IMG/VR virus record: IMGVR_UViG_3300043436_003813
Coordinates: 1-64,000 of that record
DNA: 64,000 bases
Source: a virus
Reading direction: 5' to 3' (one strand)
Shown here: positions 1-61,303 of the stretch, piece after piece
Position numbering within the stretch: position 1 is the stretch's first letter
How the letters are laid out: each line of letters begins with the position of its first letter
The notes under the pieces: model-generated
Told to the model about the DNA's origin: nothing
What the model saw: the letters and a program-made list of their open reading frames with translations, nothing else
Databases searched by the model: none
Program-made: the position numbers and the translations under genes

Positions 1-54
1 TTCCGAGCGGCGTGGAATCCGTGCGGAAACACACGGACTACGTCGCTCACCTGA
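1..54 (+). CDS. 3' end of an unidentified reading frame (partial)
   Basis: The frame beginning at base 1 runs to a TGA at 52-54, immediately before a strong terminator, so it is probably the tail of a gene lying mostly outside the window. Only 17 residues are visible and no family can be named. The position beside the first cassette core site would suit an integron integrase or another phage gene, but nothing visible supports either. Confidence 0.3.
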   Translation, partial: FRAAWNPCGNTRTTSLT

Positions 55-99
55 GCCCGACCGAAGCCTCCACGCCCTTCGGTCGGGCTTTTTGTTTTT
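55..99 (+). terminator. Rho-independent terminator
   Basis: A 12-bp perfect stem (55-66 with 77-88) is followed by an almost uninterrupted T tract (89-99). It separates whatever lies upstream from the first cassette core site at 101, so array transcription probably does not come from the left. Confidence 0.85.
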
Positions 100-100
100 C

Positions 101-107
101 GTTAGGC
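101..107 (+). other. Left boundary core site of array A (GTTAGGC)
   Basis: A canonical R' core directly follows the T tract of the terminator. The complementary inner arm seen in the other attC sites is absent, so this is either an attI-like or secondary insertion site, or the remnant of an eroded attC. Confidence 0.6.
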
Positions 108-118
108 TCATTTTCAAT

Positions 119-409
119 ATGGATTCCATCGACAACGCACTAATCGAAACCCGCCAAAAGCTGCGTGAAGCGCGAATCGCGAACGACAAGCTGCGCGGAT
201 CGCTCGCAATCATGGGCGACCAATACAAGGAGCTAGAGCGCGAGAATGCCCGGCTGCGTGCAATCTTCCCGCGCATCCTTGAGGCCCTGCAATCCGGTGC
301 CTGTGCGCCTGATTGCAGTGTCGAGTTTTTTGAGATGATTCCGAATGAAGTGGCGGGCGTCATGCGCAAACTCCGTATGCCTAACGCCAAAGATGAGGGA
401 CACGGCTGA
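119..409 (+). CDS. Cassette 1: small coiled-coil protein (96 aa)
   Basis: The first ATG after the core site is at 119; a longer frame would start before the core. The central part (ELERENARLR, around residues 40-50) is a charged leucine heptad region typical of small phage coiled-coil proteins. The same phrase occurs in the cassette 9 product. The last codons lie inside the attC site. Function unknown. Confidence 0.7.
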   Translation: MDSIDNALIETRQKLREARIANDKLRGSLAIMGDQYKELERENARLRAIFPRILEALQSGACAPDCSVEFFEMIPNEVAGVMRKLRMPNAKDEGHG

Positions 410-502
410 GAACGGCCCTCGCAAAAACTCTGAACTATGAAAAACCAAAACACATCGAATTCGCGGCGGCTAGCCGTGCTCCTCTCTATCGCCTTGTTAG
501 GC
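379..502 (+). repeat. attC site 1
   Basis: Starts GCCTAAC (379) and ends GTTAGGC (496-502). The inner arms around 391-410 and 468-490 pair imperfectly. 124 bp. Confidence 0.8.
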
Positions 503-523
503 TCATTCTTCATTTCTGATTTT

Positions 524-790
524 ATGACCACTGGAGAACTAATCATCGACGAAATCATCCGGCAGAAAATGGTGCGAACCGATGCCGAAAATCCGCTTGT
601 GCTCGTGTGGAGCGCCAACGCCGCAGAGCAACTGGAGGGCATCGTGGCCCAAGAAACCGCGGACATCATGCGAAAGTGGGCCAGCGACCGCCGGCTCATG
701 GGCGGCGCGTTCCAACTGCTCAAGGAAGCGGGCAAGATGCCGGGGTCGGAGGAACTCATTGCTGCGGCAGAGAGGGCTTCTTCTGCTTAA
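524..790 (+). CDS. Cassette 2: conserved small phage protein (88 aa), paralogue of the gene at 61028
   Basis: ATG at 524 is the first after the core site; an in-frame ATG at 437 would lie inside attC1. The product (IIDEIIRQ near the N-terminus, WSANAAEQL centrally, GSEELIAAA near the C-terminus) aligns end to end with the product at 61028-61303, with about 60 of 85 positions identical by eye. Function unknown. It shows that a gene of this phage's early operon, or a close relative, also exists as an integron-type cassette. Confidence 0.85.
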   Translation: MTTGELIIDEIIRQKMVRTDAENPLVLVWSANAAEQLEGIVAQETADIMRKWASDRRLMGGAFQLLKEAGKMPGSEELIAAAERASSA

Positions 791-873
791 CGACAAGATC
801 ACTCAGCCCGGCCAGTCGGTTCCGCTTGCCGGACGTGGCAGCGACCGGGCTTGAGTGCATCGCATGGTTAGCC
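785..873 (+). repeat. attC site 2
   Basis: Starts GCTTAAC (785) and ends GTTAGCC (867-873). A long internal GC-rich inverted repeat (about 808-852) forms the stem. 89 bp. Confidence 0.75.
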
Positions 874-884
874 TCCTTTTCTCT

Positions 885-1133
885 ATGAGCACCGAAATAA
901 AACAGACATGGGAATGCACCGCCCCCTCGCCGGACGCGTGGTCGCTCGGCCAGCGCGTGGGCGACAAACTCACGAATGCGGTGGCCATCGTGCAACGCCT
1001 CGAAAGCGGGGAGTGGGATTGGATCGCATACACGCGGGCCGGTAAACGGTGGGGCAAGGAGCCCAGCCGCGACACCGCAATGACCGCCGCCGAGTCCGCC
1101 TTGGCTAACGTCCAAGATGAGCCACGAAGGTAG
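885..1133 (+). CDS. Cassette 3: hypothetical protein (82 aa)
   Basis: Starts 12 nt after the core site and ends inside attC3. The middle reads as an antiparallel sheet (VAIVQRL, then WDWIAYTRAG), followed by a helix rich in Ala and Glu. No family recognised. Confidence 0.7.
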   Translation: MSTEIKQTWECTAPSPDAWSLGQRVGDKLTNAVAIVQRLESGEWDWIAYTRAGKRWGKEPSRDTAMTAAESALANVQDEPRR

Positions 1134-1201
1134 ATGGCACGACTTTCTGCGCAGCAGAAATCGTGACAGCTACCGGAGTTGGCTCCATCGCGTTGTTAGG
1201 C
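1103..1201 (+). repeat. attC site 3
   Basis: Starts GGCTAAC (1103) and ends GTTAGGC (1195-1201). The inner arms GATGAGCC (1117) and GGCTCCATC (1181) show the unpaired extra C. 99 bp; one of the clearest sites. Confidence 0.88.
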
Positions 1202-1419
1202 TCATCCTTCTCACTGAGTTTCATTCGCTCAAAAATGCTCATGACTTTCTGGGTAATGTTTGATCTGGAGGGGCTTCTGACGCTTCGCGCGCGTGCGAAG
1301 TCTGAGGAAACCCCAAATCTCTGAGCTTCGAGAACCCACATCGTCCATAACGCTTCGTCGTCACGGGGTTTTTGAGGTTTCGCCGGCTGGACAGCCAACA
1401 AATAGGTTTTCGGTTTTCA
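1202..1419 (+). other. Cassette 4: no convincing gene
   Basis: This cassette body holds only a 29-codon plus-strand frame (1235-1324) and a longer minus-strand frame (1105-1401) that runs through attC3. Neither resembles a known protein. It contains a short GC-rich inverted repeat around 1286-1301. It may be a non-coding or regulatory cassette. Confidence 0.4.
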
Positions 1420-1527
1420 GCCTAACGCACAAGAGGAGCCGATGCGGGCCAGCGAGCAACGCGATCGGACGGCTCCCGCGCCCGATCTGTGACAAGCAAC
1501 CGCATTGGCTCCCTCGCATTGTTAGCC
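1420..1527 (+). repeat. attC site 4
   Basis: Starts GCCTAAC (1420) and ends GTTAGCC (1521-1527), with inner arms GGAGCC and GGCTCCC. 108 bp. Confidence 0.82.
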
Positions 1528-1541
1528 TCCGTCTTCTTTTT

Positions 1542-2135
1542 ATGGATACTAAACTCTATCTCTTCCGCGACCTCCGCGACACCGCGCCGCGCTGGCATAG
1601 TGTCGGGCCGCATCACGAGCGACTCTCGCTCAACCTCATCGACCTCGTGGGATACGCCGGTAAAAACTGCGCCAACCATCCGCCCTATCACCTCTACAAC
1701 GCGGGCGGCTACGACACCGACCACGCGCATCTGCCGCTACCGGCCATCGACCAAAGCGTGGAGTATGCAACCGCTGAGGATGCGCGGGCGGCTGGCGAAG
1801 CCTACGCTCTCCGCTGGATTGAGGCAGCGGGTAACGCGCCGGTAATCTGGACGGCGAACAAAACAGGCGTGCACTGGCAGGCCAACGCCGACGGCGTCCA
1901 CATCGGCAACTACTACTACAGCACCGGCCGAAAGCATCGGATGCCGGATGGCACGCTGTGGCACAAAGGCTTTCGCGTCTGGTTCGGCGGAACGTATTAC
2001 ATCATCGACTTCGCGAGCCCGAAGGAAGCCCGCGCCCGCGTGGAGGCCACATGGCGTGAGTGGATGGCGCACGCGAAGTCTCTTCTTCTGGCTAACGCAA
2101 AAGTGAGCAATGCCCACGGGAACGAAGCTCAATAA
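1542..2135 (+). CDS. Cassette 5: hypothetical protein (197 aa)
   Basis: Starts 14 nt after the core site; an upstream in-frame extension would cross attC4 and is not credible. The C-terminal half is rich in aromatic residues (GNYYYSTGR, WFGGTYYIIDF) and ends in an Arg/Glu helix. The longest cassette gene without an assigned family. Stop lies within attC5. Confidence 0.75.
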   Translation: MDTKLYLFRDLRDTAPRWHSVGPHHERLSLNLIDLVGYAGKNCANHPPYHLYNAGGYDTDHAHLPLPAIDQSVEYATAEDARAAGEAYALRWIEAAGNAPVIWTANKTGVHWQANADGVHIGNYYYSTGRKHRMPDGTLWHKGFRVWFGGTYYIIDFASPKEARARVEATWREWMAHAKSLLLANAKVSNAHGNEAQ

Positions 2136-2209
2136 CTCTCCGACTCATGAATACTAAAACCGATAATTCGCAGGCAGCGGGGGGCATTGGCTCCACTGCT
2201 TCGTTGGGC
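2090..2209 (+). repeat. attC site 5
   Basis: Starts GGCTAAC (2090) and ends GTTGGGC (2203-2209). 120 bp. It contains an ATG (2147) in frame with the next gene. Confidence 0.8.
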
Positions 2210-2233
2210 GCATTCGCCTCTGGAACCGGACTC

Positions 2234-2479
2234 ATGGGAGCCACGGAACCCGGCCAAGAAGTCACCGCCGAGAACGTAGCCGAATTGCCGCCGGGAAGTG
2301 TTGTTCGCATCAAGGACGGCGCCCGGTTAATCCACCTGCACGACGGGCTGTGGCTTTGGTGCTGCGACTGCTCGTGGTGCTACGACCGAGTAACGCGCCT
2401 CGCTTGGCGGCTGAAAGAAGGTGCTACGCTCTGTCATTTGCCTCTGTCCAACGTAGCAGTCAGCAAGCCGAGCCCCTGA
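2234..2479 (+). CDS. Cassette 6: small Trp/Cys-rich protein (81 aa)
   Basis: ATG 2234 is the first after the core site. An in-frame ATG at 2147 inside attC5 would add 29 attC-encoded residues. The core reads LPPGSVVRIKDG (a beta hairpin), then LWLWCCDCSWC, a cluster of Trp and four Cys that could bind metal. Function unknown. Confidence 0.65.
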   Translation: MGATEPGQEVTAENVAELPPGSVVRIKDGARLIHLHDGLWLWCCDCSWCYDRVTRLAWRLKEGATLCHLPLSNVAVSKPSP

Positions 2480-2533
2480 GCAAAATTCGCAAACATGACA
2501 CACAATCGGCTTTGCTGGAGTGCTTGGTTAGGC
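2446..2533 (+). repeat. attC site 6
   Basis: Starts GTCCAAC (2446) and ends GTTAGGC (2527-2533). 88 bp, with the inner arms less conserved than in site 3. Confidence 0.72.
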
Positions 2534-2544
2534 CCGATCTTCCT

Positions 2545-2745
2545 ATGATAAAACGAATCCCAACTCCTGACATGCAACGCTGGCCCGTAAATAGCACGCG
2601 CTTTCTACTGCCATGCGTCGCCGTGAAAGGCTGGCCCGGCGGGGCGATAAACGTAATCCTCTGCTTTTGGGTGTGGCGCGTGGATTTTCAATACATGCCT
2701 AACGCCGGCAGTCAGCGGGCCGAGGCTGGCCGCCCAGCATCCTGA
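2545..2745 (+). CDS. Cassette 7: hypothetical protein (66 aa)
   Basis: Starts 12 nt after the core site. A moderately hydrophobic stretch (residues about 23-48, including VILCFWVW) could be a membrane segment or a buried strand. No family recognised. Confidence 0.55.
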   Translation: MIKRIPTPDMQRWPVNSTRFLLPCVAVKGWPGGAINVILCFWVWRVDFQYMPNAGSQRAEAGRPAS

Positions 2746-2784
2746 GCGACGAACAATCGGCTTCGCTGGAGTGCCTTGGTAGGC
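2697..2784 (+). repeat. attC site 7 (mutated core)
   Basis: Starts GCCTAAC (2697). The 3' core reads GGTAGGC (2778-2784) in place of GTTAGGC, a change at the conserved GTT where integrases cut, so the site may be inactive. Confidence 0.65.
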
Positions 2785-2803
2785 TCCTTTTATTTTTATA
2801 CCT

Positions 2804-3076
2804 ATGGCTACCGACGAAAAAATCTACGCTGAGCGCATCGCACACGCTAAAATCAGTCTCGATTTCTGGTGGGGGCAGTATGCAAAATATGCCGACGCAA
2901 ACGCCGAGGAGATGTTTTACCGGGCCAAGCGCCAATTGCGCGAACTGACCGAGTGGCGGGACGCTCGGCGGGCGGTGCCGTGCCTCCCAATTGCCCCATG
3001 CTACCTCCCAAGCACCCGCGACGGGGTGTTTCCGTCGCCTAACGACAAGTTCAGCGGTGAGCCGCGCGGCGAATAA
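2804..3076 (+). CDS. Cassette 8: small helical protein (90 aa)
   Basis: Starts 20 nt after the core. The first 55 residues are predicted helical with many charged residues and Trp/Tyr (FWWGQYAKYA); the C-terminal third is Pro-rich and runs into attC8. Function unknown. Confidence 0.65.
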   Translation: MATDEKIYAERIAHAKISLDFWWGQYAKYADANAEEMFYRAKRQLRELTEWRDARRAVPCLPIAPCYLPSTRDGVFPSPNDKFSGEPRGE

Positions 3077-3148
3077 CTCTATGGACACGATACCTGCAAA
3101 ACCTCCCGCCGACCAGTTGCCCGCGTTGGCTCCAGCGCCTTGCTAGGC
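3037..3148 (+). repeat. attC site 8 (mutated core)
   Basis: Starts GCCTAAC (3037). The 3' core reads GCTAGGC (3142-3148) in place of GTTAGGC. The inner arms (GGTGAGCC, GGCTCCAGC) are otherwise intact. Confidence 0.68.
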
Positions 3149-3167
3149 CCGATTTTCTTTTTTCGTT

Positions 3168-3470
3168 ATGAACTGGACACAATGCCCAAAGTGCAAGCGC
3201 CGGACATGCACGCCGAGCACGCATGAATGTGAGAAACCGCGTGCCGAGCTAGAGCGCGAGAACGCCCGGCTGCGGGAGCGGTGCGTGAAAATGAACGAAG
3301 CCGCCGAGAAACTGGTGGATGCCGTCAACTCGGTCCAAAGCTGGGAAGACACTTGGGTTGGCGAGTGCATCCAGTATATCGACGATCTGCGATATCAGCC
3401 TCTGCCTAGCGCGCCGTATCAGCCGCACGGCGGGAGCGTAGCCACCCCGCCTGACCAACCTACCAAATAA
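3168..3470 (+). CDS. Cassette 9: zinc-knuckle plus coiled-coil protein (100 aa)
   Basis: The N-terminus has CPKC, then a second Cys and HEC (residues 6-21), a likely small zinc site. It is followed by a leucine coiled coil (ELERENARLR) shared with cassette 1. The end of the gene runs through a degraded attC start (GCCTAGC, 3404) and no 3' core follows. Function unknown. Confidence 0.7.
   Translation: MNWTQCPKCKRRTCTPSTHECEKPRAELERENARLRERCVKMNEAAEKLVDAVNSVQSWEDTWVGECIQYIDDLRYQPLPSAPYQPHGGSVATPPDQPTK
3404..3410 (+). other. Remnant attC 5' core (GCCTAGC)
   Basis: Where attC9 should lie, only a mutated 5' core is seen and no GTTRRRY follows before the next start at 3478. The site has been lost, fusing cassettes 9 and 10 into one unit. 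Confidence 0.5.
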
Positions 3471-3477
3471 CCATTTT

Positions 3478-3807
3478 ATGAAACATACATATTCCGTAGA
3501 GGCGCTCCATTGCGAGCGGTGGGGCAAATTATTCGGGTCTGAAACCCGAGACTTTTGCGCGGGCTATTTGAGCCACGCTCAATACTGTCACCCCCGGCTG
3601 GCGCATCGCATCGTGCGCAGCGATGGAAAGGTCGTGCATGAGATGAAGGCCGATTCCGAAGTGCATATCGGCATGGTCGCGAGCTGGCCCACGCCTGAGC
3701 AATACGAAGAGGCCGCAAAGCGAGCCCTCGAACAGGCTGCGCGCATCCGTGAGCAGGCCGCGAAACAGGAAGAGCGTCGGCTCGCGAGGGTTTCATTTCA
3801 CGCCTAA
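3478..3807 (+). CDS. Cassette 10: hypothetical protein (109 aa)
   Basis: Starts 7 nt after the stop of the preceding gene. The N-terminal half (SVEALHCERWGKLF, HPRLAHRIVRSDGKVVHEM) looks globular; the C-terminal 40 residues are a charged Ala/Glu/Arg helix. Stop codon sits in the 5' core of attC10. Function unknown. Confidence 0.7.
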   Translation: MKHTYSVEALHCERWGKLFGSETRDFCAGYLSHAQYCHPRLAHRIVRSDGKVVHEMKADSEVHIGMVASWPTPEQYEEAAKRALEQAARIREQAAKQEERRLARVSFHA

Positions 3808-3889
3808 CGTCAAAGTTCAGACAGCCGAGCCCCAGACTCACGATAAACTATGAACGCTTCCGATCAATCTCTGCAACGCCTTGTTGGGC
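3802..3889 (+). repeat. attC site 10
   Basis: Starts GCCTAAC (3802) and ends GTTGGGC (3883-3889). 88 bp. It contains the ATG used by the next gene. Confidence 0.8.
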
Positions 3890-4128
3890 TCCGCTGGTAT
3901 TGCGGATGCTACGTCGGCGAGCCGAAGTGGCAAAACAGTGAGGACTTCGAACCTGACGAGTGTGGAGCCGAGTTCGACACCCGCGAGCACGACGAGGAAT
4001 CGTGGGCCGAGGGGATATGCTCCACGACATGCCCGGAGTGCGGAGCGGAGCTAACCCAGAAGCATGACGCTCCGGTTCTTCTGTCCAACGCCGTGGTGAG
4101 CAACACCGGGGCGAATACTAAAACATAA
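3850..4128 (+). CDS. Cassette 11: zinc-ribbon-like protein (92 aa), start inside attC
   Basis: No ATG, GTG or TTG in this frame follows the core site early enough to include the conserved WYCGC segment, so translation probably begins at 3850 within attC10. The first 14 residues are therefore attC-encoded. CGC (about 18-20) and CPEC (about 61-64), with an acidic region between, suggest a two-knuckle zinc ribbon. Function unknown. Confidence 0.7.
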   Translation: MNASDQSLQRLVGLRWYCGCYVGEPKWQNSEDFEPDECGAEFDTREHDEESWAEGICSTTCPECGAELTQKHDAPVLLSNAVVSNTGANTKT

Positions 4129-4212
4129 ACTCAAACACTCTATGCCTACGAATACACAAAACGATACGCCAGCCGGACAGTCCCCGGTGTTGGCTCCAGC
4201 ACATGGTTCGGC
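4083..4212 (+). repeat. attC site 11
   Basis: Starts GTCCAAC (4083) and ends GTTCGGC (4206-4212), with inner arm TTGGCTCCAGC. 130 bp. Confidence 0.72.
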
Positions 4213-4390
4213 TCCGTCGTCTTTTCCGTATTTCCACTCGGGCAACGAAAAACAGGACGTGGCATGCCTACTGGATATGGCAATCGACATCATCGAAATA
4301 TGGGACGTGAAGAATAGCCCGTATAACCAAGAGCTGAAACGCTGCTGGATGAAGCGAGCGCAAGAACTAGGGGCGAACATCTCGTGGTGA
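4142..4390 (+). CDS. Cassette 12: small helical protein (82 aa), start inside attC
   Basis: The ATG at 4142 lies within attC11; the next in-frame ATG (4268) would remove a plausible N-terminal helix. The C-terminal part (LLDMAIDIIEIWDVK) is amphipathic and helical. About 24 leading residues are attC-encoded. Function unknown. Confidence 0.6.
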   Translation: MPTNTQNDTPAGQSPVLAPAHGSAPSSFPYFHSGNEKQDVACLLDMAIDIIEIWDVKNSPYNQELKRCWMKRAQELGANISW

Positions 4391-4400
4391 TTCTTTCTCT

Positions 4401-4530
4401 GCCGAACGTCAAAGTTCAGACATCCGCGCCCGAAAACCAATAAACTCCTGACACCCTATGACCTCGCAAATCGCACTCGACACCCGCAAGCCGGACAGCA
4501 AGCGGATTGTTCTGCAACGCCTTGTTAGGC
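4401..4530 (+). repeat. attC site 12
   Basis: Starts GCCGAAC (4401) and ends GTTAGGC (4524-4530). 130 bp. The 5' arm resembles that of attC10 (CAAAGTTCAGACA). Confidence 0.75.
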
Positions 4531-4685
4531 ATTCTTCTCCGTCTTCTGTTTTGCCCCGCGCCACGCAAGCCAACCGCTCGCAGTTTATCGACGTATGCGT
4601 GTATCGCATGGGCATGTCGCTTTCCGAGGCTCAAGAATACTTCGTCCGCAAAAATCACGAACTCTGGCAAAGGCTCTGTGCCTAA
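4458..4685 (+). CDS. Cassette 13: small protein (75 aa), start inside attC
   Basis: Starts at 4458 in attC12; an internal ATG (4608) would leave only 25 residues. The C-terminal 40 residues (FIDVCVYRMGMSLSEAQEYF) look like a two-helix domain, possibly DNA-binding. Function unknown. Confidence 0.6.
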   Translation: MTSQIALDTRKPDSKRIVLQRLVRHSSPSSVLPRATQANRSQFIDVCVYRMGMSLSEAQEYFVRKNHELWQRLCA

Positions 4686-4811
4686 CGCCAGCGGTGAGCC
4701 GCGCCCCCTCGAAAAACCATGAACACCACGACAGCAGATTTTAGCCTCGAACAACCTGCACCGGACGCAGGCGTGACAAGCGGGGGCGTTGGCTCTAGCG
4801 CTTTGTTGGGC
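4680..4811 (+). repeat. attC site 13
   Basis: Starts GCCTAAC (4680) and ends GTTGGGC (4805-4811). 132 bp. Its middle (from 4719) is almost identical to the attC at 52980-53109 in the second array. Confidence 0.85.
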
Positions 4812-5432
4812 TCCGTAACTCTGAGCTGCGAGGACTGCATGGCGCTCATGGCACGCTATCCCGACAAGCACTTCGACCTCGCAATCGTCGATCCGCCCTA
4901 CGGGATCGGGCGCGACGGCTCGGCACGAACGACAAGTAGCCACGGCGGGCGCAAAGCGCACGAGTTTAAGGGATGGGACGCCGCGCCACCTAATGCTGCA
5001 TACTTCGCGGAGCTTCGGCGCGTGAGTCGGAACCAAATCATCTGGGGGGCGAACTACTACCCGCAGCACCTAGCGCCAAGCATGGGGTGGATCTTCTGGG
5101 ACAAGGGCCAGCGTATCTGCAACAGCGACGGCGAACTTGCCTTCAGCTCCTTCGACCGCGCTTTGCGTGTGATAGAAATGAACCGCGTCGAATTGCTGAA
5201 AGAAGGCACGATCCACCCGACACAGAAGCCGGTGGCGCTATACCGCTGGCTCCTCGAAAACTACGCCAAGCCAGGCCAGCGCATCCTCGACACGCACCTC
5301 GGATCCGGCTCGCACGCGATTGCGTGCCACTACGCGGGGATGCACCTGACCGCGTGCGAAATCGACGCGGACTACTTCGCGGCGGCGCAAGAACGCATCG
5401 CCCGCGAAACCCGCCAGACAACCCTGTTTTGA
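4719..5432 (+). CDS. Cassette 14: DNA methyltransferase (N6-adenine/N4-cytosine type)
   Basis: Motif IV DPPY (58-61) precedes HPTQKP (166-171) and the SAM-binding LDTHLGSGS (190-198), the order of beta-class amino-methyltransferases. It would methylate adenine or cytosine in DNA using SAM. At 237 aa it has little room for a large target-recognition domain, and no restriction partner is nearby, so it is probably an orphan modification enzyme, perhaps protecting phage DNA. The first 31 residues derive from attC13. A TTG inside the core site (4806) is an alternative in-frame start. Confidence 0.9.
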   Translation: MNTTTADFSLEQPAPDAGVTSGGVGSSALLGSVTLSCEDCMALMARYPDKHFDLAIVDPPYGIGRDGSARTTSSHGGRKAHEFKGWDAAPPNAAYFAELRRVSRNQIIWGANYYPQHLAPSMGWIFWDKGQRICNSDGELAFSSFDRALRVIEMNRVELLKEGTIHPTQKPVALYRWLLENYAKPGQRILDTHLGSGSHAIACHYAGMHLTACEIDADYFAAAQERIARETRQTTLF

Positions 5433-5441
5433 TTTCTGTAT

Positions 5442-5540
5442 GCCCAACGTCGAAGATGAGCCGCACGTATGCTTGGCGCAGGGCGTGCGTAAGCACGAAC
5501 TGTGACAAGCATACGTGTTGGCTCCATCGCTTTGTTAGGC
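5442..5540 (+). repeat. attC site 14
   Basis: Starts GCCCAAC (5442) and ends GTTAGGC (5534-5540). The inner arms GATGAGCC and GGCTCCATC carry an unpaired base and are followed by a long GC-rich stem. 99 bp. Confidence 0.88.
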
Positions 5541-5569
5541 CGGTTTTCTTTTTAATAACGCTACGAATT

Positions 5570-5824
5570 ATGAATAAAATCTATTTAGCTAAAATGCAGT
5601 GGTGCGAAGAGGAAGAGCTGATATGCGCAGGAACCAATAAGCGTAAGGTTGCACAAGCTGCGTTGCGCATCCTGAAGGAGGAGCACGGAACTGGTCCGGT
5701 ATCGCGTGGGCTAGCGATGTGTTCGGTTCCTATCACGATGTCAGACATTGCTATGGTCGAGATTCCGTTAATTCTGCCTAACGCGCCGATCAGGCACGCC
5801 GTCTCTGACCCTAAAAAACCATGA
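5570..5824 (+). CDS. Cassette 15: hypothetical protein (84 aa)
   Basis: Starts 29 nt after the core, with an AT-rich leader. A compact mixed alpha/beta pattern (KIYLAKMQW, then AQAALRILKEEHG, then AMVEIPL) suggests a small globular fold. Its stop overlaps the start of cassette 16 (ATGA), so the two are translationally coupled across an attC. Confidence 0.7.
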   Translation: MNKIYLAKMQWCEEEELICAGTNKRKVAQAALRILKEEHGTGPVSRGLAMCSVPITMSDIAMVEIPLILPNAPIRHAVSDPKKP

Positions 5825-5879
5825 CCTCTTGCGAAAAACCTGAACAGCTACCGGCGTTGCCTGCATCGACTGGTTGGGC
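5776..5879 (+). repeat. attC site 15
   Basis: Starts GCCTAAC (5776) and ends GTTGGGC (5873-5879). 104 bp. It contains the start codon of the next gene. Confidence 0.78.
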
Positions 5880-6420
5880 TCCGTCTCCATTTTCTTTCCG
5901 CCGCGTGTGGGCTATGCCAAACGCCGACACCTTCACGGTGCCGCCAATGGGTGAAATGGTGAAACGCTACCTCGCGCAAGGTGGCGTGAGCATCGACCCC
6001 TTCGCACGCAATAAACGCTGGGCAACGCACACGAACGACCTCAACCCAAAGACGGAAGCGGAGCACCACATGGAGGCCCGCGACTTCATGCGGATGCTCG
6101 TAGAACGTGGCGTCGTGGCGGATCTCGTAATTTTTGACCCGCCATATTCGCCGCGCCAAGTGGCCGAGGTGTATTCCGAAATCGGGCTAACGGCCACGAT
6201 GAAGGACACGCAGACGGCGGGCATGAAAAAGGAATGCCGCGACCTAATCCGCAAACTCTGCAAGCCGGGTTCCGCCGTGCTGTCTTTCGGATGGAACAGC
6301 GTCGGCATGGGGCCGGGCTTCGTGACCGAAGAGATTCTGATGGTCTGCCACGGTGGCGACCACAACGACACAATATGCCTCGCGGAGCGGATGACGATCA
6401 AGCAGGAGGAACTTTTCTGA
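5821..6420 (+). CDS. Cassette 16: adenine-specific DNA methyltransferase (phage type)
   Basis: The conserved N-terminal segment RVWAMPNADTF (28-38), then IDPFARNKRWATHTNDL (SAM region, about 58-74) and DPPYSP (106-111), match a family of small phage adenine methyltransferases. The RVWAMP segment lies before any internal ATG, so the start at 5821 inside attC15 is most likely real, giving about 20 attC-encoded leading residues. Second orphan methyltransferase of the array; no cognate nuclease is visible. Confidence 0.85.
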   Translation: MTSCEKPEQLPALPASTGWAPSPFSFRRVWAMPNADTFTVPPMGEMVKRYLAQGGVSIDPFARNKRWATHTNDLNPKTEAEHHMEARDFMRMLVERGVVADLVIFDPPYSPRQVAEVYSEIGLTATMKDTQTAGMKKECRDLIRKLCKPGSAVLSFGWNSVGMGPGFVTEEILMVCHGGDHNDTICLAERMTIKQEELF

Positions 6421-6424
6421 TTCT

Positions 6425-6431
6425 GCCCAAC
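6425..6431 (+). other. Right boundary of array A: half attC (GCCCAAC)
   Basis: The expected 5' core follows the stop of cassette 16, but no matching arm or GTTRRRY core appears before the next gene at 6472. The attC is cut off within its loop and joined to phage sequence. Confidence 0.65.
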
Positions 6432-6471
6432 AAGGCAAATAACCCGTAGCCGCTGAACATCACGCCCGCTA

Positions 6472-6801
6472 ATGCTCGCCCTAAAGCGCATCCCGTGGCG
6501 AAAGCGTCGCGCCAAAGCCCAAGAGTGGGCGCGGCTTTCTCACGCTGCCCGCCTCCGCAACAACGCCGAACGCGGACCTAGCAGCCGGGATGCCTACCTC
6601 TTGGCGCTTGAGGAATCACGTGGCATGGTGCTGCGTCATGGCGTGACCTATTCCGCCGCGCACCCAGACGGACAACCGTGGGCGATTCTGCGCAGCAAGG
6701 TGGGGCGCACGAACCAAGTTGATCTTCATCTAGGAGAAGACATGGCCTTTACTGGCTCGCTTCGCACCCTTGAGCGTGCCATGAGAAGGGCCAAGCTCTA
6801 G
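6472..6801 (+). CDS. Small basic hypothetical protein (109 aa)
   Basis: First gene after the cassette array. The N-terminal 50 residues are strongly basic and helical (KRIPWRKRRAKAQEW), which would suit nucleic-acid binding; the rest is mixed alpha/beta. Two nt separate it from the next gene, suggesting a two-gene operon. Confidence 0.7.
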   Translation: MLALKRIPWRKRRAKAQEWARLSHAARLRNNAERGPSSRDAYLLALEESRGMVLRHGVTYSAAHPDGQPWAILRSKVGRTNQVDLHLGEDMAFTGSLRTLERAMRRAKL

Positions 6802-6803
6802 CC

Positions 6804-7268
6804 ATGAATCTCATCCTTCCCCCCACGCGCACCGAACCCATTGACTCGGAGAAGGCCATTCTCTGGCGCTCACGTAGCCCGCAGGCGCGGGGACATGCCC
6901 GCAAGTATAGCGTGGAACTCTTGGACATTGCCGCGCGCATGGCTATAGAGAAGAACACGACGTATGCCGAGCAAAAGACAGGGGTGAGCCGCTGGTCCAT
7001 CAAGAAGCATCTGGCCCGCAAGCACAGGGACGGCACGCTCCCCATGCGTAGGCGTCCACGCAAGGACGGGGTGGCCCCGTGCTGCCGGCCAAAGTATGAC
7101 AAGCGCCAGATTGAGGCCATGCTGAAGGCAGCACTGCGGGAGTATGCCGCGAACCCGTGGAAGACGCTTCCCTCCATTGTCAGGCAGACAGCTAAGGCAT
7201 ACAACTTGCCCGGCGAATACATCTGGTCCCGCGTAATGGCGGGCCATGTCCCACTTCCCACCATATAA
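6804..7268 (+). CDS. Putative helix-turn-helix DNA-binding protein (154 aa)
   Basis: Residues about 40-75 (ARKYSVELLDIAARMAIEKN, then TYAEQKTGVSRWSIKKHLARK) fit a helix-turn-helix in which GVSRWSIKKHL would be the recognition helix. A Cys pair (CC) and basic patches follow. It sits between the cassette array and the convergent minus-strand operon, with a terminator directly after. It may be a phage regulator; no closer family recognised. Confidence 0.65.
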   Translation: MNLILPPTRTEPIDSEKAILWRSRSPQARGHARKYSVELLDIAARMAIEKNTTYAEQKTGVSRWSIKKHLARKHRDGTLPMRRRPRKDGVAPCCRPKYDKRQIEAMLKAALREYAANPWKTLPSIVRQTAKAYNLPGEYIWSRVMAGHVPLPTI

Positions 7269-7816: not shown

Positions 7817-8275
7817 TCAGTTGTATGGAGTAAATTCACGGGGCATGGCCTCCGTTGCTCCGGCTGGAAGTTGCCCCACGTTCGTGAATCGCCAGTTGAT
7901 CTTAGACATCTGCGAGTTATACTCGGCAGCCAAGCTGTTGTAGCTGGCCTTCACTCCAAGCATCTCCGTTTGCCACAAACCCACCTGCTCAAAGACATGG
8001 CGGGGCATGTCTCGCCCAACATAGCGCCCCTCCGTATTTGCAAGGCGCTGCTCGTAGAGGGCGATGTCAGCACGCTTCTTATCGAGTTGGGCGCGGGCAT
8101 CCTTGAACCACTCGTAGCGGCGAAGCAGGGTGCGCGGGTCAATCTGCTCCTCGGCGGTGGACACCACCTTGCCTGCGTAGTCGGCGGCTTTCCCGCCGAC
8201 ATAGAGCATGGTGCAGCCAACGGGAAGTGCCACGCATCCAGCCAAGACCAAGGCGAAAACGGCGGCGGTCTTCAC
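7817..8275 (-). CDS. Putative lipoprotein 2 (152 aa)
   Basis: N-terminal signal with hydrophobic core and Cys residues (VLAGC at 10-14, GC at 20-21) suggests lipid anchoring. The rest is a helical protein; the C-terminal motif YNSLAAEYNSQM...NWRFTNV recalls a family of uncharacterised envelope proteins. Its start overlaps the stop of the upstream lipoprotein gene by 4 nt (8272-8275). Probable moron cargo acting in the cell envelope. Confidence 0.7.
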   Translation of the reverse strand: MKTAAVFALVLAGCVALPVGCTMLYVGGKAADYAGKVVSTAEEQIDPRTLLRRYEWFKDARAQLDKKRADIALYEQRLANTEGRYVGRDMPRHVFEQVGLWQTEMLGVKASYNSLAAEYNSQMSKINWRFTNVGQLPAGATEAMPREFTPYN

Positions 8276-8820
8276 TGAAGCACCTCCAAATTGAGCTTCA
8301 CGGAACGAACGGGAAGCGGATTATCGGAGACATGGATGATGGCGCTGCTGCCAACGAACTGCTGATGATAACGGCCTTGCACGTCCCACCAATAGAGGTA
8401 TTCGGAGGAATCGCCGTAAGTGCCGTCATCTTGGAGGACTTCGGATGTAAGGCGGGTAGCGCCGCCGATGTCCACGTCAAAGCCCCTGTCGGAACCTCCG
8501 GGGGTATAACCCGCCCAAACTGACTTGGGCGTCAGGCGCTTGCCGCCACTAGTCACCTTGCCCCGAACCGTGGAATAGATGAGGACATCACCGGACAGTG
8601 GGCTAATGACGTAGAGATGCTTGATGGAACCAGGAAGATTGTCCGTCTTGAGTCGATCACGGATGTTTCGCTGCTCAATGGTTAGCCCATCGGTGCCGGT
8701 TTGGACGACGGTGCTTGCCTTGGTGACGCCGGAGGCAGATTGGGGAGCGACGGGCTGCGGAAGATCGCAACCAGTGAGGAGTAACGAGGTGGCCAGGGCC
8801 GGGAATAGGAAGTGTTTCAT
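8272..8820 (-). CDS. Putative lipoprotein 1 (182 aa)
   Basis: Signal peptide with lipobox LLLTGC (residues 13-18) places the mature protein on a membrane. The body (IEQRNIRDRLKTDNLPGSIKHLYV, LSGDVLIYSTVRGKV) is mixed alpha/beta and looks like a secreted domain found in phage and bacterial genomes, usually beside a second lipoprotein as here. Function unknown; envelope modification or superinfection exclusion are possibilities only. Confidence 0.72.
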   Translation of the reverse strand: MKHFLFPALATSLLLTGCDLPQPVAPQSASGVTKASTVVQTGTDGLTIEQRNIRDRLKTDNLPGSIKHLYVISPLSGDVLIYSTVRGKVTSGGKRLTPKSVWAGYTPGGSDRGFDVDIGGATRLTSEVLQDDGTYGDSSEYLYWWDVQGRYHQQFVGSSAIIHVSDNPLPVRSVKLNLEVLQ

Positions 8821-32163: not shown

Positions 32164-34077
32164 CTAGGCCGATACCTCGATGGTCCAGTATTGCGCGGGC
32201 GGGTCGATGGCACCGCCGGTCGTATTGAGCACGCGCAGCTCAACGTTGTCGGTCGTGAGCACCGGCGGCAGCACGACGAGGCCGGACGGAAGGGCGCTGG
32301 TCGGGGTGGCCCGAACACTCATGCCGACAGAAACCAGCGGCACGGTGACGTTCACGCTGCCCTCAGCGCCCGCCGCGATGCTGCCGAAATCTACGCTCAG
32401 GCGCCGGTAGCGGATGCCGTTGAGCACGCGGATCAATTGGTCTCGGATCATCTGGTGGCCGAGGGTGGAGAAATGCACGCCGTCGCCCTGCAACGTGGTC
32501 GAGGGGCTAGCAATGTCGGAGAATAAATAATAGGCGTCCGCGTAATCCACGCCAGCGGTTCGCGCGGCAGCGATGCCGGCGTTTGAGTAGGCGGTGTTCT
32601 TAGTGCTATTCACGCTCGAGCAATAAGGGACGCCAAGAATCACCACGCGCCGGCCCGTCGCGAGCACAGCGGTCGCAACGTTGCCGATGTTTGTTTGATA
32701 GTTTGTGATGACAGTCGCGTTTCCGTTCGTGGTCGCGTCAGTCAAAATCATATCGTTAGTCCCGGTTGCGAGAATAACGACACTGGCACTCGGTCGATTT
32801 ACCGCATTAACTTGGATATCCACCAAGCGCGGAATAATTGCCACCGTATCGCTAGTTCGTCGTCCGGGCATGGAGCCGTTCACCTCACGGAGCCCAAGCC
32901 GGCGGCTCAACAACACCGACCAGCGAGTAGCGTTCGCCCCTAGCCCGAATCCGTTTGAGTCGCCTACTACATTTAGCGCGGCAGAGCAGGGCTGCGGACG
33001 GACCGCGTTGACGAAATCCATCGCGGCGCGATTCAGAGAAAGCGCCTGAGCGTCGGTAAGGGCAGAGCCGACGCTGAAAAAATGCAGGGTGCCGGTCGTG
33101 GTGTATGGATTGTTGTCCGGGGCGTGCCCACGGAGCAGTAGGATTTCCGCGTTGAGATTTACAGAGGTAGGCGTCGAAGACCCGCTAGATTGAATCGACC
33201 CATCGGCGCACGCGACCAATCCGCCCACCCGCCCAGACCACGTGATCGCCCGCACGGTGGTATCCGCAGCGCGACCGTAGGTATTGCCGTCATATCGGGT
33301 GAGGCCATAGGAATCGCCCGGCGACCACACGGGTTTCGAGTCTGCACCAGCGGGCGTGGACCCGATGATGTTTGCGACGTTGGAGAAACCGCCGGCAGCA
33401 ACGCAGCAAAAAGAGAGGTTGCTGCTAGAAAGACCGAGCGCGGTAGGTATCACTCCAGTGGATACGAACTGAGTTCCGGTGCCGACTAGGCCACCCTCTT
33501 GGGTGTAGTTCCCGGGGACAAAATTGGTGCCGGCGGTCGTCACCCCATCCGTGTTGATCGCCTGCGCCAACGCGACCGCAAGGCTACTGCCGCAAAACGG
33601 GAGGATGAGCTTTTGAAGCGCGAACCATCCATCACGCTTTCCGGTCACAACAAGGCGGTCATAAGCCTCCAAGACAAAGGCGTCGATGGATGATCCTGCC
33701 GCAATCACGCGCGCCTCGTAATCGAGCGTCTCGACCTGAAAGCCGCGCACCTGAGCGGCGACATGCCGCCCCGTGGAGCCGAGCGTCGCCACGCCGTTCG
33801 CGGCGCCTTTCTCGGAGGCGGGGATGGCGCCGATGGCGGAGAGCGCAGTGGCTTGATCCTCGGACGCAAGAACCTCAAGACCGACTGTCCCGGTCGTTAG
33901 GTCTGTTCCTCCCTCTTGGGCTAGCTGATTGTTGTTTGCCGCGACTCGCGCAGCAATCGCATCAACCGGATCAGAGGCGACGTAGGCAGCCGCAGTAGCA
34001 CCAGCTTCAACCTGATCGGCAAGGGTGAGGCGAAGGTTTTCCGCCGGGGATTTGAGGGGGTTATAGACGTAGGACAT
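32164..34077 (-). CDS. Tail fibre/spike with SGNH (GDSL) esterase domain (637 aa)
   Basis: Residues 1-130 resemble a fibre attachment module. A beta-rich middle precedes the hydrolase: GDSN (372-375, nucleophile Ser), GTND (439-442) and D532-x-x-H535, the SGNH blocks I, III and V. Such phage spikes remove acetyl groups from surface polysaccharide, so the host probably has an O-acetylated capsule or LPS. The last 80 residues form a separate beta domain. Confidence 0.85.
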   Translation of the reverse strand: MSYVYNPLKSPAENLRLTLADQVEAGATAAAYVASDPVDAIAARVAANNNQLAQEGGTDLTTGTVGLEVLASEDQATALSAIGAIPASEKGAANGVATLGSTGRHVAAQVRGFQVETLDYEARVIAAGSSIDAFVLEAYDRLVVTGKRDGWFALQKLILPFCGSSLAVALAQAINTDGVTTAGTNFVPGNYTQEGGLVGTGTQFVSTGVIPTALGLSSSNLSFCCVAAGGFSNVANIIGSTPAGADSKPVWSPGDSYGLTRYDGNTYGRAADTTVRAITWSGRVGGLVACADGSIQSSGSSTPTSVNLNAEILLLRGHAPDNNPYTTTGTLHFFSVGSALTDAQALSLNRAAMDFVNAVRPQPCSAALNVVGDSNGFGLGANATRWSVLLSRRLGLREVNGSMPGRRTSDTVAIIPRLVDIQVNAVNRPSASVVILATGTNDMILTDATTNGNATVITNYQTNIGNVATAVLATGRRVVILGVPYCSSVNSTKNTAYSNAGIAAARTAGVDYADAYYLFSDIASPSTTLQGDGVHFSTLGHQMIRDQLIRVLNGIRYRRLSVDFGSIAAGAEGSVNVTVPLVSVGMSVRATPTSALPSGLVVLPPVLTTDNVELRVLNTTGGAIDPPAQYWTIEVSA

Positions 34078-51205: not shown

Positions 51206-51282
51206 TGGCGTCTCCGGCTGGACTTGAACCAGCAGCCACCGACTTAGAATGACGGTGCTCTGTCCGATTGAGCTACGAAGAC
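51206..51282 (-). tRNA. tRNA-Arg (anticodon TCT)
   Basis: Complete cloverleaf on the minus strand: 7-bp acceptor (GTCTTCG/CGGAGAC), D arm GCTC/GAGC, anticodon loop ATTCTAA (anticodon TCT), T arm GCTGG/CCAGC with loop TTCAAGT, discriminator G and encoded CCA. One T-T mismatch in the anticodon stem. It reads AGA, a codon usually rare in GC-rich hosts, so it may aid phage translation. Confidence 0.92.
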
Positions 51283-52322: not shown

Positions 52323-52547
52323 ATGAGAATCACTATCTTATCCGCTCATCCGGCGTCCTGCTTTTTGCCAGCCTCGCCAGCCCATCTCCGCCTCATAGCC
52401 GAGAACGCGGCAGAGGAAGATCAAATCAAATCCCTGCTGGCCAATCTCAAGCAGGGCGGGGCTACCGTCTCCCAATACGGCCAGCCCACCAGCGCAGACT
52501 ACATGGCCGTGGGGCTGGAAGTGGAGTTGGCTCCATCGCGTTGTTAG
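52323..52547 (+). CDS. Small phage protein ending in a half attC (74 aa)
   Basis: Good Shine-Dalgarno and promoter. N-terminus MRITILSAHPAS resembles a Rossmann-type strand; the middle is helical (AAEEDQIKSLLANLKQGG). The last residues (ELAPSRC) and the stop codon are encoded by the 3' half of an attC, so cassette insertion probably replaced the original C-terminus. Confidence 0.6.
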   Translation: MRITILSAHPASCFLPASPAHLRLIAENAAEEDQIKSLLANLKQGGATVSQYGQPTSADYMAVGLEVELAPSRC

Positions 52548-52979: not shown

Positions 52980-53109
52980 GCCTAACAACCAAGCTGAGCC
53001 GCGCCGGTAAAATACTATGAACACCACGACAGCAGATTTTAGCCTCGAACAACCTGCCCCGAACGCCTGCGTGACCAGCGTAGGCGTTGGCTCTAGCGCC
53101 TTGTTGGGC
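52980..53109 (+). repeat. attC site B1
   Basis: Starts GCCTAAC (52980) and ends GTTGGGC (53103-53109). 130 bp. From 53017 the first 41 nt equal those at 4719 in attC13, and most of the remaining arm matches as well. Confidence 0.87.
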
Positions 53110-53132: not shown

Positions 53133-53372
53133 ATGGATACCAAAACACAAGCAAGCCCCGCACTTCGGGAGTTTACCATGCGAGTCTCGAAAGACCTGTT
53201 GAAGACCGGATGGACTATCCGCGACGACGGAGCCGCTGGGATGCCGGATGATGTGATGGAATCGGATCTGGGTCGGTCGGTAGCGTCCCACGCCCACCTC
53301 CTAGAGCCGGACGACTGGAAGAAACTGCGCATCGAAATACTGAAGCGGGAACTTGATGCTCTTTCTACCTAA
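53133..53372 (+). CDS. Cassette B2: hypothetical protein (79 aa)
   Basis: Starts 24 nt after the core. Charged helical protein (REFTMRVSKDLLKTGW, DDWKKLRIEILKRELDAL). The stop codon lies in the 5' core of the broken terminal attC. Function unknown. Confidence 0.68.
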   Translation: MDTKTQASPALREFTMRVSKDLLKTGWTIRDDGAAGMPDDVMESDLGRSVASHAHLLEPDDWKKLRIEILKRELDALST

Positions 53373-53373
53373 C
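53367..53373 (+). other. Right boundary of array B: 5' half attC (ACCTAAC)
   Basis: A 5' core followed by AACCAAGCTCA, the usual L'' arm, then immediately the end of a phage gene (stop at 53382). Joined end to end with the left half site, a complete attC would be rebuilt. Confidence 0.65.
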
Positions 53374-60761: not shown

Positions 60762-61031
60762 ATGAAACATACCCCTTGGTATCCGCTGCACTTGCAAATC
60801 ATGCTGCATTACACGCATGAGTCCGTGACGCCAATTGCTTGGACCGATCCAGCCGGCGGGACGTTTTACCACGACCTCATCGCCGCCGGCCTCCTCATCG
60901 AGAAGAACCTAGACCCCGGCACCCCCTCCAACATCGTCATCACCCCACGTGGCAAAGCCTTCGTGGATATGCTCTGCCAGACCCCCATCCCCGTTCAGCG
61001 TTGGACAGACCCACGGGAGGGTATGGCATGA
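60762..61031 (+). CDS. Winged-helix-like protein (89 aa)
   Basis: Helix LQIMLHYTHESVTPI, then FYHDLIAAGLLIEKN and IVITPRGKAFVDML, matches the pattern of small winged-helix domains of phage regulators. Ends overlapping the next start. Confidence 0.58.
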   Translation: MKHTPWYPLHLQIMLHYTHESVTPIAWTDPAGGTFYHDLIAAGLLIEKNLDPGTPSNIVITPRGKAFVDMLCQTPIPVQRWTDPREGMA

Positions 61032-61303
61032 CCATCGGCCAAGACATCATAGACGAAATCATCAGGCAGGGCATGGTGCGCTCAGACGACGTGGAGCCCA
61101 CGGTCCTTATCTGGTCTGCTAACGCCGCCGAGCAGCTAGACGCTCTCGTGGCCCAAGAAGCCGCAGACATCATGCGCAAGTGGGACTCCGACAGGTATAT
61201 CTTTGCTGGCGCGCTCCAGCTCCTCAAGGAGGCCGGGCTGGCTCCGGGTTCAGAGGAACTGATTGCAGCAGCCAAGCGGGCAGACCAAAACAAAAGCGCC
61301 TAA
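61028..61303 (+). CDS. Conserved small phage protein (91 aa), paralogue of cassette 2
   Basis: Shares IIDEIIRQ, SANAAEQL, ADIMRKW, QLLKEAG and GSEELIAAA with the cassette 2 product at 524-790, about 70 percent identical by eye. Helical, acidic. Function unknown. This phage copy is embedded in the early operon by an ATGA overlap and has no attC beside it. Confidence 0.8.
   Translation: MTIGQDIIDEIIRQGMVRSDDVEPTVLIWSANAAEQLDALVAQEAADIMRKWDSDRYIFAGALQLLKEAGLAPGSEELIAAAKRADQNKSA

Follow-up and report, generated by a model that had tools for sequence, protein, structure and literature searches.

Integrons have been studied as bacterial devices, and the origin of new cassettes is an open question. 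What, then, does a long row of gene cassettes do on a phage, and where did the cassettes come from? The question is raised by IMG/VR virus record IMGVR_UViG_3300043436_003813, of which bases 1-64,000 of 70,354 bp form the stretch analysed here (the window); the remaining 6.35 kb were also examined. Region 101-6431 of the window is an integron cassette array, in which attC recombination sites separate short open reading frames (ORFs). The array is phage-borne and in all likelihood a CALIN (cluster of attC sites lacking an integrase), a kind already known. What appears to be new is the length of the array, its phage-type cargo common to phages, putative start codons inside attC sites, and an assembly branch at the recombination crossover point.

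Identification of the array

A custom scan for R'' and R' boxes with complementary arms, controlled by ten dinucleotide shuffles, returned nine strong sites within 1-6600, none in the ten shuffles, and none elsewhere on the contig. Two covariance models were also applied: R1, trained on 38 sites from the window and from bacteria, and R2, trained on 31 bacterial sites only, mostly from metagenome-assembled genomes (MAGs) of Verrucomicrobiota. R1 matched 14 array sites and one further site at 52980-53109, and R2 recovered the same 15 sites, all on the plus strand, with no further locus at E<=1 (71,354 bp searched, both strands). The weakest under R2 were attC 2446-2533 and attC 4083-4212 (Table 1), and two strong attC also matched R2 on the opposite strand, as expected of hairpins. 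The initial annotation had claimed at least 14 attC in one orientation, and all 14 are present between the orphan R' box (101-107) and the orphan R'' box (6425-6431); the covariance-model check that it proposed for the array and the whole phage added the site at 52980-53109. The RNAalifold consensus of the attC contains an R''/R' stem, an L''/L' stem and one unpaired base on the 3' side, in agreement with the hairpin that had been described. Against the RYYYAAC and GTTRRRY cores that had been claimed, several R' cores are degenerate (GGTAGGC at 2778, GCTAGGC at 3142, GTTCGGC at 4206, and GTTAGCC at 867 and 1521).

As in a CALIN, for which a minimum of two attC is required, the 15 sites show the R''-L''-L'-R' architecture and fold as hairpins, the orientation is uniform, the intervals are 251-741 bp, and most cassettes contain a single ORF. 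Weak or no plus-strand ORFs were found in the cassettes at about 1202-1419 and 2534-2696, and one other cassette holds two ORFs; cassette 1202-1419, without a clear plus-strand ORF, may be non-coding. A complete integron would also include intI; in profile searches, the integron integrase family TIGR02249 and the tyrosine recombinase family PF00589 were absent from the 70,354-bp record. No large serine recombinase was detected in the record by the families used, an Rfam search gave no family matches except a tRNA-Arg, and blastn of two attC against 50,697 phage records gave no match. A consensus scan for a Pc promoter, with other promoter types outside the scan, yielded no more promoters than did shuffled sequence. 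Possible entry sites, as attI candidates, are the attC-like 3' half sites at 52523 and, in the full contig, at about 70188-70232, as well as the isolated R' box at 101; a terminator-like hairpin (GAGCCCGACCGAAG/CTTCGGTCGGGC, then a T-run) lies 5' of the R' box at 101-107.

Phage context and the assembly branch

Profile matches around the array identified phage genes, including a primase-helicase (phrog_239, 9e-72) and members of the tail collar, tail fibre, exonuclease, and internal virion protein families. Terminase and capsid were not recognised in the profile searches of the record, and the phage is known here from a metagenomic contig. The final 127 bp of the contig (70228-70354) are an exact copy of 2780-2906; phage contigs G002 and G003, which carry the same attC type, have exact 127-bp terminal repeats as well, and the join of G002 is spanned by contig G004. 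Because we take 127 bp to be the overlap length of the assembler (SPAdes), 2780-70227 would close as a circle of 67,448 bp with eight full attC. Seven of these are array sites (3037 to 5879) and the eighth is attC 52980, and the seven left attC (379 to 2784) lie on a branch. Identity between the two copies sets in at the third base of an R' box, which reads GTTAGGC at 70226 on the phage arm and GGTAGGC at 2778 on the array. At this point the integron integrase IntI would cross over (G|TT). Segment 1-2779 may be read as an alternative branch into the same node, joining at the IntI crossover point.

The branch could represent a phage population with a shorter and a longer array, or a different molecule, such as another phage or a host integron, that shares the sequence from cassette 2804 onward. 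The second possibility is a serious one that falls somewhat short of being probable: the first bases of the contig are neither repeated in the contig nor found in any other IMG/VR contig, and the tail 1-2779 contains a block common to a Mu-like phage; however, cassette types, lengths, and start codons within attC are alike on either side of 2780. The initial claim of one array in a phage is upheld for the seven attC inside the putative circle; the seven left attC, whose branch enters at the R' crossover, may or may not belong to the same molecule. The claim that the array is phage-carried was borne out, as the 6.43-kb junction lies within the apparent closed circle and a second cassette pair is present at 52.5-53.4 kb. 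A search by protein near 54-56 kb for an empty site found no relative, and a protein search with 8272-8820 returned 13 loci whose gene content overlaps that of the window phage in little more than two genes, too little for an empty-site comparison.

Putative start codons inside attC sites

Many attC have an ATG within the hairpin loop, from which an open frame crosses R' into the following gene. This arrangement was found in 9 of the 15 attC of the window (3.9 expected from shuffled loops, P=0.01) and in 18 of 44 other viral attC (7.5 expected, P<1/300), whereas bacterial attC (6 of 43, 5.0 expected, P=0.37) were not above chance; the P values are rough, since the viral set was drawn with window patterns and the test sets include related sites. 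As far as the literature searched shows, an open frame across the crossover in many cassettes has not been described.

Individual cassettes are consistent with this arrangement. In ORF 3850-4128, none of the 203 nt that follow R' offers an in-frame start codon. Viral contig G008 also carries the 4142 cassette, there preceded by another attC and another leader; from residue 21 on, the two proteins are 95% identical, with nine synonymous and two other codon changes, and the two leaders differ yet keep the same frame. Among methyltransferase homologues, 64 of 81 have no possible start ahead of residue 20, and for many it falls near residue 32; there the window methyltransferase has GTA and no start codon, and it and the homologue in G022 would begin about 32 residues before the usual start, within attC. 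In G002, G004, and G005, an almost identical leader is found in front of a different methyltransferase. Taken together, cassettes seem to borrow start codons from neighbouring attC.

It could be argued that the ATGs and read-through frames arise by chance or act in termination-reinitiation only, and that the true starts lie after R'. Some cassettes do have their own ATG 21-34 nt past R', and in class 1 integrons reinitiation is known to be helped by short ORFs within attC (PMC8876359, section 3.2). We regard this as the less likely reading, given the enrichment over shuffled sites in phages and not in bacteria, the 203 nt free of in-frame starts in 3850-4128, the predominantly synonymous changes in the 4142 cassette body behind two leaders, and the methyltransferase homologues that cannot start before residue 20.

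A methyltransferase without a detected attC, in L144 and L146, begins MNTTTETFSLES, resembling the attC-borne leader, and several other methyltransferases have an F-S/T/N-LE motif near the N-terminus; the attC leader may be a fossil of a methyltransferase gene of the L144/L146 kind. Identical leaders precede different cassettes at 15.0-15.5 kb of viral contig L089 (G012).

Cassette cargo and the source of the array

Two cassettes encode DNA methyltransferases of phage families (4719-5432 and 5821-6420). Residues 30-114 of cassette 437-790 are 73% identical to a native gene of the same phage at about 61028-61303, which sits in an ordinary overlapping gene string. The protein of cassette 1542-2135 has 64% amino acid identity to an ordinary gene in the 95-kb viral contig L103, at a locus without attC, and was found in none of the 289 sampled Verrucomicrobiota genomes; its predicted structure is of low confidence (predicted local distance difference test score 64) and gave no useful fold match. 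Contig G006, in which a Mu Gam gene, a truncated IntI, and five attC were found, matches the window at 100% identity over a 676-bp block (1422-2097), and the methyltransferase cassette 4719-5432 recurs in G022 (76% amino acid identity). This sharing suggests that phages trade genes via integron machinery. The idea of the phage as a cassette vehicle gains support from the block identical in the Mu-like phage. The match G001/L002 was rejected, as it looks like a chance hit within coding sequence and has no attC partner.

A 24-nt pattern from the L'-R' half of attC, for which about 0.1 chance matches are expected by our own estimate, matched 26 bacterial loci, including 21 in Verrucomicrobiota, 3 from one Oxalobacteraceae MAG, and 1 in Aminicenantes. 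Similarity between the window and these bacteria is confined to attC and ends near the site ends, and one attC in the Verrucomicrobiaceae MAG contig L015 shares 97% identity with attC 1103-1201. IntI above the TIGR02249 cut-off was found in 12 of the 20 genomes carrying pattern matches, and a contig-against-contig tblastx comparison gave mostly noise. Because the attC type matches Verrucomicrobiota integrons, the phage host is, judged by attC type, probably a Verrucomicrobiota bacterium.

The array might instead be a fragment of a host chromosomal integron, acquired once by illegitimate recombination or aberrant excision and kept as passenger DNA. Such an origin would fit the host-type attC, among which one agrees with a host site at 97% identity and two have exactly the host length, and the half sites at both array ends; however, attC lengths in the window are mixed (88-132 bp, standard deviation 16), whereas those of host arrays are uniform (97-100 bp, standard deviation <=0.7), the cargo is phage-type and common to other phages, with the 1542-2135 protein missing from the host-phylum sample, there is a further insertion at 52.5-53.4 kb, and the branch point of the assembly coincides with an R' crossover. 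On this evidence a single acquisition from the host is improbable, and the picture is rather of an array that would have been built piecemeal from a phage gene pool than sliced from a host integron. An assembly or binning artefact, in which a host or plasmid cassette contig was fused to a phage contig, has very little to commend it: the left 2.78 kb is a branch via a 127-bp node with its phage linkage unproven, but the right half of the array leads, via the other contig end, back into the putative phage circle, an attC of the same type, which G002, G003, and G005 also carry, lies in the phage at 52980, and GC content is alike in array (0.577) and phage (0.58-0.59).

Integrases were observed in other viral contigs. 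In the complete, circular 39.3-kb genome of phage G002 (IMGVR_UViG_3300034096_000737), genes for a major head protein and tape-measure-like products are accompanied by that for an intact IntI (L033:4087-5091; TIGR02249, 354 bits), which is the only tyrosine recombinase found there and adjoins attC and two methyltransferase genes; G002 may use IntI as its own integrase. In G004, the same phage as G002, intI is split across two frames, and the IntI of G016 (L086) has one stop. Further viral contigs with attC arrays are L089 (G012), L088 (G018), L137, and L086 (G016).

Features of the locus

Table 1. Features of the cassette array and mini-array, 5' to 3' (R1 and R2, sites matched by the respective covariance model)
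Feature	Position	Strand	Evidence or relation
Orphan R' box GTTAGGC, left array edge	101-107	+	Sequence; no RYYYAAC upstream
attC, 124 bp, internal ATG at 437	379-502	+	R1 48 bits, R2 E=6e-7
Cassette ORF, putative start within attC 379-502	437-790	+	Paralogue of native gene
attC, 89 bp	785-873	+	R1, R2
Cassette ORF, 82 aa, own ATG	885-1133	+	
attC, 99 bp, host type	1103-1201	+	R1, R2; 97% identity to L015 attC
attC, 108 bp, within block common to Mu-like phage G006	1420-1527	+	R1, R2
Cassette ORF, 197 aa, unknown fold	1542-2135	+	Homologues in G006, L103
attC, 120 bp, internal ATG at 2147	2090-2209	+	R1, R2
Cassette ORF, putative start within attC 2090-2209	2147-2479	+	
attC, 88 bp, weakest	2446-2533	+	R1 E=2e-5, R2 E=0.22
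attC, 88 bp; R' box is assembly branch point	2697-2784	+	R1, R2
Cassette ORF, 90 aa, own ATG	2804-3076	+	First 34 codons recur at 70252-70353, contig right end
attC, 112 bp, first within putative closed circle	3037-3148	+	R1, R2
Cassette ORF, 100 aa	3168-3470	+	
Cassette ORF, 109 aa	3478-3807	+	
attC, 88 bp, internal ATG at 3850	3802-3889	+	R1, R2
Cassette ORF, putative start within attC 3802-3889, Zn-ribbon-like (weak match)	3850-4128	+	
attC, 130 bp, internal ATG at 4142	4083-4212	+	R1, R2 (E=0.04)
Cassette ORF, putative start within attC 4083-4212	4142-4390	+	Same cassette in G008
attC, 130 bp, internal ATG at 4458	4401-4530	+	R1, R2
Cassette ORF, putative start within attC 4401-4530	4458-4685	+	
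attC, 132 bp, phage type, internal ATG at 4719	4680-4811	+	84% identity to attC of phages G002, G004, G005
N6/N4-type DNA methyltransferase; first ~32 residues apparently encoded by attC	4719-5432	+	PF01555 2e-14, phrog_67 6e-42
attC, 99 bp, host type, best site	5442-5540	+	R2 102.7 bits
attC, 104 bp, internal ATG at 5821	5776-5879	+	R1, R2
Phage-type DNA methyltransferase	5821-6420	+	phrog_11619
Orphan R'' box GCCCAAC, right array edge	6425-6431	+	ORFs 6472-6801 and 6804-7268 directly after
attC 3' half (L'-R'), end of phage ORF 52323-52547	52523-52549	+	Identical to 1175-1201
15th attC, deep in phage	52980-53109	+	R1, R2; same type as 4680-4811 (85% identity)
Mini-array cassette ORF, orphan R'' box (53367-53373) at end	53133-53372	+	

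Outside the array, 32164-34077 (minus strand) encodes a tail-fibre-like protein with a GDSL lipase/acylhydrolase domain, and a tRNA-Arg (tct) lies at 51206-51282 (minus strand), about 1.2 kb from the mini-array. Near the right end of the full contig, at 69521-69743 (L001:6521-6743), a 12-bp tandem repeat gives Ser-Ala-Ala-Arg/Glu/Trp repeats in a 202-aa protein.

A possible integron economy of phages

The following mechanism is proposed. The host, or a co-infecting phage of which G002 would be an example, would supply an integron integrase in trans that excises and inserts cassettes at attC of the phage DNA, so that the phage samples small accessory genes, e.g., DNA methyltransferases; as many attC would hold a start for the next cassette, an inserted cassette would be read from its neighbour's ATG if the frames match. 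Cassette mobility itself, by IntI excision and insertion at G|TTRRRY, is inferred, and the branch at the R' box is an indirect sign of it. On a broader and tentative view, which we hold possible but short of probable, Verrucomicrobiota phages have an integron economy of their own, with a phage-specific cassette pool and start-carrying attC, which moves between unrelated phages and swaps N-termini.

Several points weigh against the proposed mechanism. The leader peptide is without clear protein-level selection, an in-frame ATG or TTG close to R' is available as well in some of the read-through ORFs, the circle rests on a 127-bp overlap rather than on reads, and the host-genome negative for the 1542-2135 protein is that of a sample of 289. 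In addition, the G006 block spans the R'' of the upstream attC to its own R'', not R' to R' as excision of a single cassette predicts, and the ends of the array and of the mini-array are half sites; because of these features, IntI is possibly not the sole agent, and part of the traffic may be due to homologous recombination or strand switching at attC.

The largely phage-type cargo, the paralogue among the phage's own genes, and the cassette in two unrelated phages together suggest that phages both make and carry cassettes, and the question of cassette origin becomes testable. If the starts do lie in attC, every insertion would give a protein a new N-terminus, and N-terminus exchange by cassette insertion was not previously described as a regular feature within the literature searched. 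If the phage integron economy is real, recombination would swap protein N-termini too, with at least one phage encoding an integrase.

Comparison with known systems

A survey of 10,705 phage genomes found 17 CALINs and three complete integrons (Qi et al. 2023, PMC9892861). The initial view that arrays are expected on chromosomes or plasmids, and that a phage with so many cassettes is rare, must be tempered, as phage-borne arrays are known (PMC9892861), but this one is long and heterogeneous. The phage CALINs TJE1, P12002L, and PH101 (PMC9892861) resemble it in having attC clusters without intI and methyltransferase cassettes; however, the examples in the published text are short (three sites in TJE1, compared with 14 plus one on the window contig), the host group differs (Verrucomicrobiota for the window, as inferred above), and copies of window cassettes recur in other phages with identities of up to 100%, with starts that appear to lie inside attC. 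Complete integrons of temperate phages (Vibrio anguillarum p16, a P1 isolate, and Shewanella M16-3; PMC9892861) likewise place integron parts on a phage, but the window phage is without intI, whereas G002, with the same attC type, has it. Integrons on the chromosomes of Verrucomicrobiota and of pond MAGs (L008, L010, L028, and L031) belong to the same attC family, with intI in most carrier genomes, but their attC are uniform in length and have no excess of internal starts, and their cargo is different. Lastly, ORF-11 and ORF-17 of attI1 and the short ORFs of class 1 attC (PMC8876359), as well as fused cassettes (PMC4670013), are alike in that translation signals in the recombination site aid the next cassette; in class 1 integrons, however, the small ORF ends and translation restarts, whereas in many of the window's cassettes the open frame would supply the following protein with its N-terminus.

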